Positions 13,741 to 16,311 of a DNA stretch of 32,784 nt are shown one piece after another; position 1 is the stretch's first letter, and each line of letters begins with the position of its first letter. Source of the DNA: Saprospiraceae bacterium (lineage in GTDB: Bacteria; Bacteroidota; Bacteroidia; Chitinophagales; Saprospiraceae). A program made the translations under genes and the position numbers. The DNA is taken from the NCBI GenBank assembly GCA_027488855.1, contig JAIYAV010000084.1:1-32784 (forward strand), given 5' to 3'. A model generated the notes under the pieces. It made no database searches. It saw only the letters and a program-made list of their open reading frames with translations, and was not told the DNA's origin.

Positions 13741-14415
13741 ATGCAAAAATCAATCCTGATCACCGGAGCTTCCGGCAACCTTGGCCACGCTGTGCTCCAA
13801 AAATTTGTCAACGAAGGATTTAAAGTATACGGAACGGATCGCTCCGCTTCCCCCAGAACCGATGCAGAAATTGGCGCAGTTGACCTGACCGACGAACAAG
13901 CCACGCAGGCTTATATTGAAGACATTTGTAAAAAAAGCCCGGACCTGAATGCGGCGGTGCTGCTGGTTGGGGGCTACGCTCCGGGAGGTTTGATGGCTGC
14001 CGATGGAGCTGCTTTGCAAAAGATGTACAAGCTCAATTTTGAAACGGCCTATTTCGTGGTACACGCCCTTTTGCCCCATTTTGAAGCCAATGGTGGCGGG
14101 CATATTGTGTTGATCGGTTCTCGGGCAGCCATTGATGCACAGGCAGCTTTGTACAATGTAGCCTACGGATTGTCCAAGTCCTTGTTGATCGCGCTGGCCA
14201 ACATCATCAATGCCTACGGAAAGGACAAGGGCATTCGCGCTTCAATGATCATACCCAGTACCATCGATACGCCGCCCAATCGGGAGGCCATGCCAGATGC
14301 TGATTTTGAAAAATGGACAACACCCGAGGCGATTGCCGATAACATCCATTTTTTGTTTACTGAGTCGGGGCAACACCTGCGGGAAACGGTGTTGAAAATT
14401 TACAATGAAGCTTAA
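13741..14415 (+). CDS. short-chain dehydrogenase/reductase (dihydropteridine reductase-like)
   Basis: 224 residues, short for an SDR. The nucleotide-binding motif is TGASGNLG (8-15), an acidic Asp residue in strand 2 (GTDRSAS) is followed by a shortened region, and the catalytic pair is Tyr142-x3-Lys146 in AYGLSK. The central block LLVGGYAPGG replaces the usual NNAG, as in dihydropteridine reductase-like members. It should be a cytosolic NAD(P)H-linked reductase of unknown substrate. Its last 11 bases overlap the start of the next gene (ATG at 14405), showing an operon with the small membrane protein and, before a MITE insertion, with the redox genes further on. Confidence 0.88.
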   Translation: MQKSILITGASGNLGHAVLQKFVNEGFKVYGTDRSASPRTDAEIGAVDLTDEQATQAYIEDICKKSPDLNAAVLLVGGYAPGGLMAADGAALQKMYKLNFETAYFVVHALLPHFEANGGGHIVLIGSRAAIDAQAALYNVAYGLSKSLLIALANIINAYGKDKGIRASMIIPSTIDTPPNREAMPDADFEKWTTPEAIADNIHFLFTESGQHLRETVLKIYNEA

Positions 14416-14629
14416 ATCCTTGCACATGTACTGGTTGCAAATCCTGCTTTACGGAGTGTACGCCTACCTGGCCCTGGGTCTGATTTTTGGGCTTTGGTTT
14501 GTGTTCAAAGGCGCGGAGCAAATTGATGGAAACATGCATGGGGCGAGTTGGGAAACTCGTTTGTTGCTTTTACCTGCCACCATCGCTTTGTGGGTAATCT
14601 TGCTCAACAAATGGTTAAAACAAAGGTAA
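14405..14629 (+). CDS. small two-helix membrane protein with a C-terminus altered by a MITE
   Basis: 74 residues, no family recognised. Two transmembrane helices at about 9-32 (YWLQILLYGVYAYLALGLIF) and 48-66, with a short loop containing DGNMHGASWETR. It overlaps the SDR gene by 11 bases; a start at Met8 (14426) is also possible. The last codons are AAA CAA AGG TAA, where AGG TAA comes from the left end of a 213-bp element. Removing the element and one copy of the 11-bp duplication gives the ending KQKRHGS and a TGA that overlaps the next gene's ATG by 11 bases, the same overlap as at its own start. So the present stop is a by-product of the insertion. Confidence 0.72.
   Translation: MKLKSLHMYWLQILLYGVYAYLALGLIFGLWFVFKGAEQIDGNMHGASWETRLLLLPATIALWVILLNKWLKQR
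14614..14624 (+). repeat. left 11-bp target-site duplication of the MITE
   Basis: GTTAAAACAAA, identical to 14838-14848, directly flanks the left end of the element. Confidence 0.8.
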
Positions 14630-14837
14630 ATTTTGAATTAATTGCGCAACATGTGCGACTTCTCCGAAGTCGTAATGCCTTAATTACGATCATTTTCTAC
14701 AAATGTGAGACCTCTCCGAGGTCATCAGATCGACTTCGTAGAAGTCGTTCATTTGTAGAAATGTTTCAAATGAGTTTTTTACGACTTCGGAGAAGTCGCA
14801 CAGTATTGATTATCAATGCAATTAATTCAAAATTCAC
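14625..14837. mobile_element. 213-bp MITE built of nested palindromes
   Basis: The ends are inverted repeats of 20 bp with one mismatch: GTAAATTTTGAATTAATTGC at 14626-14645 and the complement of GTGAATTTTGAATTAATTGC at 14818-14837. Inside are four short hairpins with 3-base loops: CGACTTC/GAAGTCG at 14656-14672 (loop TCC), GACCTC/GAGGTC at 14709-14723, CGACTTC/GAAGTCG at 14731-14747 and again at 14782-14798 (loop GGA). The first and last are reverse complements of each other. TTCTACAAATG (14695-14705) pairs with 14750-14760. Identical 11-bp direct repeats flank the element. It has no open frame of its own, so it must have been mobilised by a transposase elsewhere. Confidence 0.85.
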
Positions 14838-14848
14838 GTTAAAACAAA
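14838..14848 (+). repeat. right 11-bp target-site duplication of the MITE
   Basis: GTTAAAACAAA, identical to 14614-14624, immediately follows the right end of the element and lies six bases before the ATG at 14855. Confidence 0.8.
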
Positions 14849-14854
14849 AAAGAC

Positions 14855-15271
14855 ATGGTTCCTGAATTGCGCAAACGACATCGCAGGATCTGGCAAATTG
14901 GCGGCGTTTTGCTCTGCTTGGGTTTTGCTGCGGCAATCTGGGTATTACCGAAACCTGTTCCAGCGGGGCAATGGCCAGGTAACGAGTTGCCTCCTTTTCC
15001 AAAAGTTTTGGCCAGCAAAACCAAAGGCAATTTGAGTTTTCAATTGCGCCAAGGGGCAAATGATCTGAAACAGATCGAAATCACCCAGCAGCGGGTCATG
15101 GAGCAAACATTCGTTCAGGTGTTCTGCAACAATGCCCTGCAAGGCGTGTTGGGCCCCGCAGGGGTTCGACGGTTTAGCCTGAGCGACACCTTATCTGCCG
15201 AGCCGCCTTACTTAATTGAACTTGTCGATGGAATCAACCATAAGACCATTCATCAAATCGTCCTCCCATGA
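14855..15271 (+). CDS. single-pass membrane-anchored protein of unknown function
   Basis: 138 residues, no family recognised. A basic start MVPELRKRHRR precedes one transmembrane helix (about 12-31, IWQIGGVLLCLGFAAAIWVL), so the remaining 105 residues probably face the periplasm. That part begins with a Pro-rich stretch (PKPVPAGQWPGNELPPFP) and is otherwise beta-like, with LSFQLRQGANDLKQIEITQ and FVQVFCNNALQGVLGPAGVRRFSL. Its last bases overlap the start of the cytochrome b-Rieske gene by four (ATGA), so the two are translationally coupled and the protein is probably part of the same redox complex. In the pre-insertion arrangement its ATG overlapped the end of the small membrane gene. Confidence 0.75.
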   Translation: MVPELRKRHRRIWQIGGVLLCLGFAAAIWVLPKPVPAGQWPGNELPPFPKVLASKTKGNLSFQLRQGANDLKQIEITQQRVMEQTFVQVFCNNALQGVLGPAGVRRFSLSDTLSAEPPYLIELVDGINHKTIHQIVLP

Positions 15272-16311
15272 GTGTCAACTACACCACTGTACAATGGAAC
15301 CGCCAAAAACGGCGCTACGACCGCATCATGCTTGGCATCATGGTTTTGTACTTGTTGACGTTTACATTTCTGCAATTGGTTTTTTACCCCCTGACTAGCC
15401 CGGAAACGCTGATCATTCGGGCCACTGGCACCTTGGCCTTCATCATGCTGCAATTCATCTTGTGCATCGGGCCATTGGCGCGTTTGGACCATCGGTTTTT
15501 GCCGCTGTTGTACAATCGTCGGCATTTGGGGGTGACTACTTTTTTGATTGGGGCGGTACATGGAGTTTTTAACGTCATCCAGTTTCATAGTCTGGGCTAT
15601 GTGGATCCCATATTTTCGGTGTTTGCTTCCAATACCCATTATGCCTCCTTGCAGGATTTTCCTTTTCAGGTTCTGGGCTTTTTTGCCCTGGTGATCCTGT
15701 TTTTGATGGCCGCTACCAGTCACGATTTTTGGTTGAAAAACCTGAGTCCGCGTTGGTGGAAAAGCCTGCACATGTTGGTGTATCTGGCCTATGGGCTGTT
15801 GGTTTTCCACGTGATGTTGGGGGTAGTGCAGTTGGAACAATCGCCCATGTGGATCGGCTTTGTGGGTTTTGGTCTCTTGACCCTGGTTTCGCTGCATTTG
15901 ATGGCGGCGGGAGTAGAGAAAAAACGGTTGTTGGAGCAAATGGATAAAGCAGCAGTGGGGGAGGGGTTCTACCAGGTCTGCTCAGCGGAGGATATCCCTG
16001 AAAACCGCGCTAAAATGGTTTATTTGGAAGGCCAAAACATTGCCGTGTTTCGTTACGATGGCAAGGTGTCGGCGGTCAACAACATTTGTCGCCACCAGCA
16101 TGGGCCAATCGGCGAAGGGAAAATTGTGGATGGCTGCATCACCTGCCCCTGGCATGGCTACCAATACTTGCCACAAAATGGGCAATCGCCGCCGCCTTTT
16201 ACCGAAAAATTGGAGACCTACGATGTGAAAATTGTGGATGGTATGGTATGGGTCAACCCAAGTCCTTACCCCGAAGGAACCGAACGCCCTGCGGCCATTA
16301 TTCAAGCCTAA
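15268..16311 (+). CDS. cytochrome b-type (ferric reductase-like) membrane domain fused to a Rieske [2Fe-2S] domain
   Basis: 347 residues. The N-terminal two thirds hold about six transmembrane helices with the ferric-reductase/YedZ-like heme plan: His86 and His98 in one helix (RRHLGVTTFLIGAVHG) and His168 and His181 in another (SLHMLVYLAYGLLVFHVML), enough for two b-hemes. The C-terminal part (about 233-335) is a Rieske domain: Cys274-x-His276, 16 residues, Cys293-x2-His296 in CPWHGYQY, the normal cluster ligand set. The Rieske domain begins right after the last helix with a basic segment (EKKRLLEQ), which favours a cytoplasmic side. The fusion should carry electrons across or along the inner membrane; donor and acceptor are unknown. 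It overlaps the preceding gene by four bases and precedes the next by ten. Confidence 0.92.
   Translation: MSVNYTTVQWNRQKRRYDRIMLGIMVLYLLTFTFLQLVFYPLTSPETLIIRATGTLAFIMLQFILCIGPLARLDHRFLPLLYNRRHLGVTTFLIGAVHGVFNVIQFHSLGYVDPIFSVFASNTHYASLQDFPFQVLGFFALVILFLMAATSHDFWLKNLSPRWWKSLHMLVYLAYGLLVFHVMLGVVQLEQSPMWIGFVGFGLLTLVSLHLMAAGVEKKRLLEQMDKAAVGEGFYQVCSAEDIPENRAKMVYLEGQNIAVFRYDGKVSAVNNICRHQHGPIGEGKIVDGCITCPWHGYQYLPQNGQSPPPFTEKLETYDVKIVDGMVWVNPSPYPEGTERPAAIIQA

Follow-up and report, generated by a model that had tools for sequence, protein, structure and literature searches.

A high-copy MITE family with IS982-like ends and an insertion between two genes of a Saprospiraceae genome

A probable IS982-type MITE and its relatives

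The passages of the Cardinium cOegib report that deal with MITECca01 describe an element of about 240 bp without a transposase gene, bounded by IS982-like ends and present in high copy number at mostly intergenic positions (PMC9769881). For the IS982 family itself, the parts of the source concerned with its general features give ends that mostly begin with AC and follow the consensus AC(N)6T(N)5TT, target duplications of 2-10 bp, and element lengths of 845-1282 bp (PMC7335449). The element described here, from a 32,784-nt stretch of DNA that was analysed whole (the window; contig C56 of genome G000), resembles MITECca01 in size, in the lack of a transposase gene, in its ends, and in the copy number and mostly intergenic placement of its family. 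With IS982 it shares the end consensus and duplications within the reported range, but measures only 216 bp and lacks a transposase gene. It differs from MITECca01 in that intact copies of the parental ISCca4 accompany the latter in the same genome, whereas no parental IS982 was found in G000, and in that the passages describing MITECca01 make no mention of interior palindromes like those of the window element (PMC9769881). The element is of a known kind, an IS982-type MITE; the near-invariant stems of its palindromes are an unexpected and unexplained feature.

The boundary shared by 66 family copies (ACGTG...CACGT) places the window element, a type-A copy reading AGGTA...CACGT, at 14624-14839. 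The original prediction, made from the window alone, had described a 213-bp element between 11-bp repeats; the direct repeats GTTAAAACAAA are present at 14614-14624 and 14838-14848, and the inverted ends and four palindromes lie where they had been placed, but the element becomes 216 bp long and the duplication 8 bp (TAAAACAA, at 14616-14623 and 14840-14847). The terminal inverted repeats span 23 nt at 91% identity. The left one, AGGTAAATTTTGAATTAA (14624-14641, forward strand), has two mismatches to ACGTGAATTTTGAATTAA, which is exact at the right end (14822-14839, reverse strand); the end of the family is ACGTGARTTYTGAATTAA, for which the forms ACGTGARTTTTGA and ACGTGARTTYTGA are also written. 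Inside lie the palindromes H1 (CGACTTC-TCC-GAAGTCG, 14656-14672), H2 ((A)GACCTC-TCC-GAGGTC(A), 14708-14724), H3 (CGACTTC-GTA-GAAGTCG, 14731-14747) and H4 (CGACTTC-GGA-GAAGTCG, 14782-14798); palindromes, duplications and the element as a whole are given without strand. The only open reading frames of at least 60 aa that cross the element, of 105 and 97 aa, run into its flanks, and no transposase gene is present. Chance does not account for these repeats, ends and palindromes, since the element has 85 BLAST matches in its own genome and its strand folds with z = -14.3 relative to shuffled sequences.

Searching the genome and its relatives for the element and for its ends, the latter as the original prediction had suggested, uncovered a family. 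The 85 matches, obtained with a 235-bp query in the draft genome G000 (8.37 Mb, 422 contigs), were counted by hand as 40 places, one of them matched only through an end and several being pieces cut at contig ends; many of the matches are one copy hit twice, once per strand, a consequence of the near-palindromic sequence of the element. The genus is represented by five genomes (G000-G004), and further copies occur in G001, which we infer to be Haliscomenobacter hydrossis, as well as in G002 and G004; the similarity search returned no type-A match in G003. Small size, terminal inverted repeats, duplications, the absence of a transposase gene, some 40 places in one genome, and empty and filled sites (see below) all agree with the original identification as a MITE. 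Among the titles listed by searches of the open-licence literature, none reports this MITE family.

Several interiors occur between these ends. Nine copies of a second type, 248-249 bp long and marked by CTGCC/GGGCAG palindromes, lie in G000 (L041, L077-L083 and L086), with further loci in G002 and G004 (L222-L227), and other types measure 303-329 bp. Because the second type carries the same ends, a single mobiliser probably serves these different interiors. Both ends are also found on very short versions, of 90 bp with a single palindrome (L039) and of 81 bp (L247). Copies sit at the ends of contigs C200, C216, C252, C300, C337, C359, C394 and C411 of G000, and the family seems to break the assembly.

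Target duplications were counted at 100 loci from G000, G001, G002 and G004, of which 66 distinct copies with at most five mismatches at each end were kept; 31 loci had no usable end pair, owing to contig ends, decayed ends or repeat fetches of one copy. The 66 include L034, probably a false pairing (10 mismatches), and at least six orthologous G000/G004 site pairs. Exact duplications of 7 bp flank 16 of the 66 copies, against 0.37 expected from swapped flanks, and exact 8-bp duplications flank five (0.03 expected); those of 6 bp and 5 bp number two (0.23 expected) and one (0.06 expected). With one mismatch allowed, 24 copies have a 7-bp duplication (3.37 expected), and the 42 that lack one even then are as expected of old copies, though this is not proof of age. 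Leaving out seven likely G004 orthologs, the exact counts are 15 of 59 for 7 bp and 4 of 59 for 8 bp. The window copy and its G004 ortholog are both 8-bp cases, and among five copies with the left end AG, the duplication is 8 bp in four (exactly, or allowing one mismatch) and 7 bp, with one mismatch, in the fifth. The 11 identical bases of the window thus consist of the 8-bp duplication and three chance matches: GT, which belongs to the target on the left and to the element's CACGT end on the right, and an A with which the element begins on the left but which on the right is part of the target. With two mismatches in its left end (AGGTA), the window copy cannot separate an 8-bp duplication from one of 7 bp plus an A inserted at that end.

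The insertion site with and without the element

The element lies at the 3' end of a small gene (14426-14629, forward strand; listed as an open reading frame from 14405) and upstream of a gene for a 138-aa protein (14855-15271, forward strand), neither of which has a Pfam match; that the small gene encodes a membrane protein was a reading of the original prediction. Genome G002 lacks the element. There the small gene ends in KKYLKHQRHGS*, compared with the NKWLKQKRHGS* predicted for the pre-insertion state, its TGA lies inside ATGGTTCCTGA and creates an 11-nt overlap with the ATG of the next gene, and the stretch has the length predicted once the element and one duplication are removed. The pre-insertion state had thus been read correctly, and one relative provides the empty site. 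This evidence comes from one genome because in G001, G003 and G005 the SDR gene is present without the small gene behind it; G007, G009, G018 and G020 gave no SDR match at 1e-40.

The site is polymorphic: G002 is empty, and G000 and G004 are filled, with the same gene order on both sides in all three. The element in G004 agrees with the window copy at 207 of its 216 positions, compared with 705 of 800 bases just upstream. Because G004 carries the same insertion, the insertion is not recent and was in this sense not caught in the middle of an operon, as the original prediction had put it; it is older than the split between G000 and G004, unless it was passed later between the lineages.

The last codons and the stop of the small gene have been replaced by the element, as the original prediction held: KRHGS is lost and R gained, so that the pre-insertion form is four residues longer, and the stop now comes from the element's own end (TAA in G000, TGA in G004). 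In the window, 225 nt separate this stop from the downstream start. The 11-nt overlap between the SDR gene and the small gene, at 14405-14415, had been offered as corroboration of the ancestral overlap; it is absent in G002 and G004. Both relatives have ACG in place of the ATG at 14405, and the small gene therefore more likely starts at 14426, a start common to them.

The insertion is very probably that of a non-autonomous IS982-type MITE moved by an IS982-family transposase acting in trans, which split two overlapping genes. Such a transposase would have recognised the ends ACGTGARTTYTGAATTAA and placed the 216-bp element in AT-rich sequence at the small gene's 3' end, where 8 bp were duplicated; in most sister copies whose duplication is clear, it is 7 bp long. 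The small protein would until then have ended in KRHGS, and the 11-nt overlap between its TGA and the next ATG would still have been intact; the end of the element would since have supplied the stop and opened the gap between the two genes. The locus thereby documents the state before and after a MITE came between two overlapping genes, one relative having the empty site and another sharing the insertion.

Two other accounts of the event itself seem most improbable. The original prediction had proposed a transposase that makes 11-bp duplications, and such an enzyme from outside the IS982 family would explain why the window copy has 11 identical bases on both sides; it is alone in this, however, as none of the 66 copies has a duplication of 9, 10 or 11 bp at the family boundary, lengths of 7 and 8 bp dominate, and the three extra bases derive from the element ends and the target. 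We therefore reject an 11-bp duplication in favour of 8 bp at the window and 7 bp in most copies with a clear duplication. The imperfect left end would likewise be consistent with a deletion derivative or a recombination scar instead of a transposed element, an account that sits just as poorly with an empty site of the expected length in G002 and with flanking gene order that is the same in G000, G002 and G004.

The original prediction also held that the operon is cut in two, which may or may not apply to its transcription. A sigma-70-type scan gave no promoter-like site anywhere in 14400-15000, and the promoter consensus TTTG/TAnnTTTG likewise gave none inside the element. Two terminator-like sites were found in the same interval, against a mean of 0.7 in shuffled sequences, and the only one within the element coincides with H3. 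The 138-aa protein was searched in 25 genomes including its own and matched in four (G000, G002, G004 and, at 26%, G026); its identity to the G004 and G002 counterparts is 41-44%. At the DNA level, 249 of 404 aligned bases of this gene are identical to G004, compared with 901 of 1000 in the next gene and the 705 of 800 upstream, and by this comparison it looks like a replaced allele. The gene that follows, at 15268-16311, encodes a ferric-reductase-like membrane domain and a Rieske [2Fe-2S] domain.

Candidate IS982 mobilisers

IS982 was considered because the ends begin with AC and the duplications are of about the size found in that family. The family end ACGTGARTTYTGAATTAA fits AC(N)6T(N)5TT as given in the end description of PMC7335449; the window's own left end starts with AG. 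The profile NF033520 gave matches in 30 of 120 genomes of the bacterial family, above the cut-off in eight, and none in the 422-contig draft G000. When inverted ends were sought by script around the 30 IS982-family loci returned, seven gave terminal-repeat pairs with duplications of 6-9 bp and the other 23 gave no such pair. Four of the seven resolved elements begin with ACGTGA: L169 (duplication TTTATTA), L170 (TGAATC), L172 (TAGAATTA) and L173 (TAGTTTA), with L172, L169 and L173 above the profile cut-off. The remaining three, L171 (ACGTGT, 9 bp) and L179 and L182 (other ends), have pairs with duplications and no ACGTGA start.

The closest ends are those of L172, a 1026-bp element of G357 that matches the MITE at 16 of 18 terminal bases at each end (two mismatches) and has, like the window copy, an 8-bp duplication; a single one among 4,891,200 mononucleotide-shuffled windows matches the MITE end as well. 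It differs from the MITE in encoding a 301-aa transposase, in belonging to another genus and in having been seen as one copy. The original prediction had anticipated a full-length insertion sequence with the same ends and 11-bp duplications; the end-matched element is instead this IS982-type sequence with 8 bp. Mismatches to the MITE end, out of 18, rise to four in L173, five in L170, six in L169, 8-10 in L171 and L176, and 12-13 in L175, the ends of which were placed by hand. The exact pattern ACGTGARTTYTGRATTA occurs in 10 of 398 genomes of the bacterial family (G000, G001, G002, G004 and six others), compared with one of 398 for the reversed control, and outside the genus G357 alone among the 398 carries two exact ends, those of L172. 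The single ends in G341, G250, G602, G297 and G174 have no transposase match next to them. In G297, which belongs to another genus, an exact MITE-type end faces a two-mismatch end 67 bp away (L256, 1501-1567), perhaps a very short relative.

Within the genus, a search with an alignment of three IS982 transposases gave no match in G000, G002 and G004 at E <= 1, and G003 has one weak fragment with stops (E 0.003). The H. hydrossis genome G001 contains seven copies of an IS982-family element (loci including L200, L203 and L204). Three copies were compared and do not differ over the length of the element, and the one inspected for its ends is flanked by a 7-bp duplication, TATGATA; the ends of this element, ACTCAAGTTGTGACC, are unlike those of the MITE, and it was rejected as direct partner for this reason. 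The 18-bp ends listed in G000-G004 include no inward-facing pair 800-3000 bp apart, and 20 regions around mostly unpaired ends yielded no autonomous copy. Exact ends in wider genome contigs amounted to 33 loci, where the best partners at insertion-sequence distance have four mismatches (L138, L146 and L155) and the L172 transposase has no match (best E 0.09). An order-wide search found the exact end in three of 298 genomes, all of this genus, G002 being outside that list.

No IS982 with MITE-type ends was thus found in the five genomes of the genus, and the MITE family may for this reason be stranded without its mobiliser, although the draft assemblies of G000, G002, G003 and G004 may hide a partner, the four-contig G001 less so. 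A parental element in the same genome is not strictly needed for a MITE, which may have outlasted it. We infer that the transposase was of IS982 type and is no longer in the G000 genome; an IS982-family transposase acting in trans is the most likely and best-supported mover, its actual partner not having been found. These results tie a high-copy Haliscomenobacter MITE family to IS982 transposases; as the five genomes of the genus yielded no transposase that matches, the family lends itself to asking how MITEs can outlast the loss of their mobiliser.

Conservation of the palindromes

The interior was compared among 33 of 38 full-length type-A copies from G000, G001 and G004, leaving out five G004 orthologs and copies outside 205-225 bp; the copies had been found by whole-element similarity or by their ends, so that some bias to well-kept ones is possible. 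Mean pairwise identity is 0.975 in the stems, 0.855 in the 3-nt loops, 0.839 in the ends and 0.746 in the spacers, and between G001 and the others 0.969, 0.811, 0.813 and 0.62, respectively. The H1 and H4 stems are unchanged in all 33 copies. H2 reads GACCTC/GAGGTC in 25 and GACTTC/GAAGTC in eight, always in both arms; the eight are seven G001 copies and L237, the middle of which looks inverted. At 15 places in G000 the ends have decayed (L034 and 14 that lack an end pair), and each of these retains two to four perfect palindromes, ten of them four. In seven orthologous G000/G004 insertions, substitutions number 5 of 385 in stems, 3 of 81 in loops, 44 of 1109 in the rest of the element and 246 of 3036 in the flanks; stems differ from the other element positions at p = 0.012 by a Fisher test that ignores dependence between sites.

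These patterns would be consistent with palindromic repeats that serve the host as regulatory or terminator-like sequences and merely carry old transposon ends, with the palindromes and not mobility maintaining the family. The high stem identity, the unchanged H1 and H4, the slower stem change in orthologous pairs and the palindromes kept by end-decayed copies all speak for such a role. The ends and the 7-8-bp duplications, however, show that the family spread by transposition; the pair test is weak, as it depends on five stem events in non-independent sites, four of them at the outermost stem pair; the switch in H2 may be one event in the seven G001 copies, plus L237; and Rfam gave no match at the gathering threshold. 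We consider this account rather unlikely, and selection for mobility among source copies would explain most of the stem pattern. Slower change of the stems after insertion, if real, would in addition need a host function or palindrome-guided repair.

A related and tentative suggestion, doubtful as well, is that palindromes of the CGACTTC-NNN-GAAGTCG type form a constrained module and that the stranded MITE family may owe its retention to some function besides movement. It draws on near-perfect stems in three genomes compared with 62% identity in the spacers, on the retention of palindromes in end-decayed copies, and on similar palindromes in G005. The palindromes may be binding sites for a transposase or a protein of the host, or may function at the level of RNA or as cruciforms. 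Because the stems hardly vary, a possible second function can be put to the test, and it is the palindromes of this family that deserve to be pursued.

The repeat in G005, a genome of another genus, has similar palindromes and different ends, with 21 matches of about 72 bp at 74-79% identity to the window element. Its loci L098, L103, L107 and L111 contain CGACCTC-TCC-GAGGTCG palindromes together with TCTACAAAT, as in the MITE interior, between ends that differ from those of the MITE.
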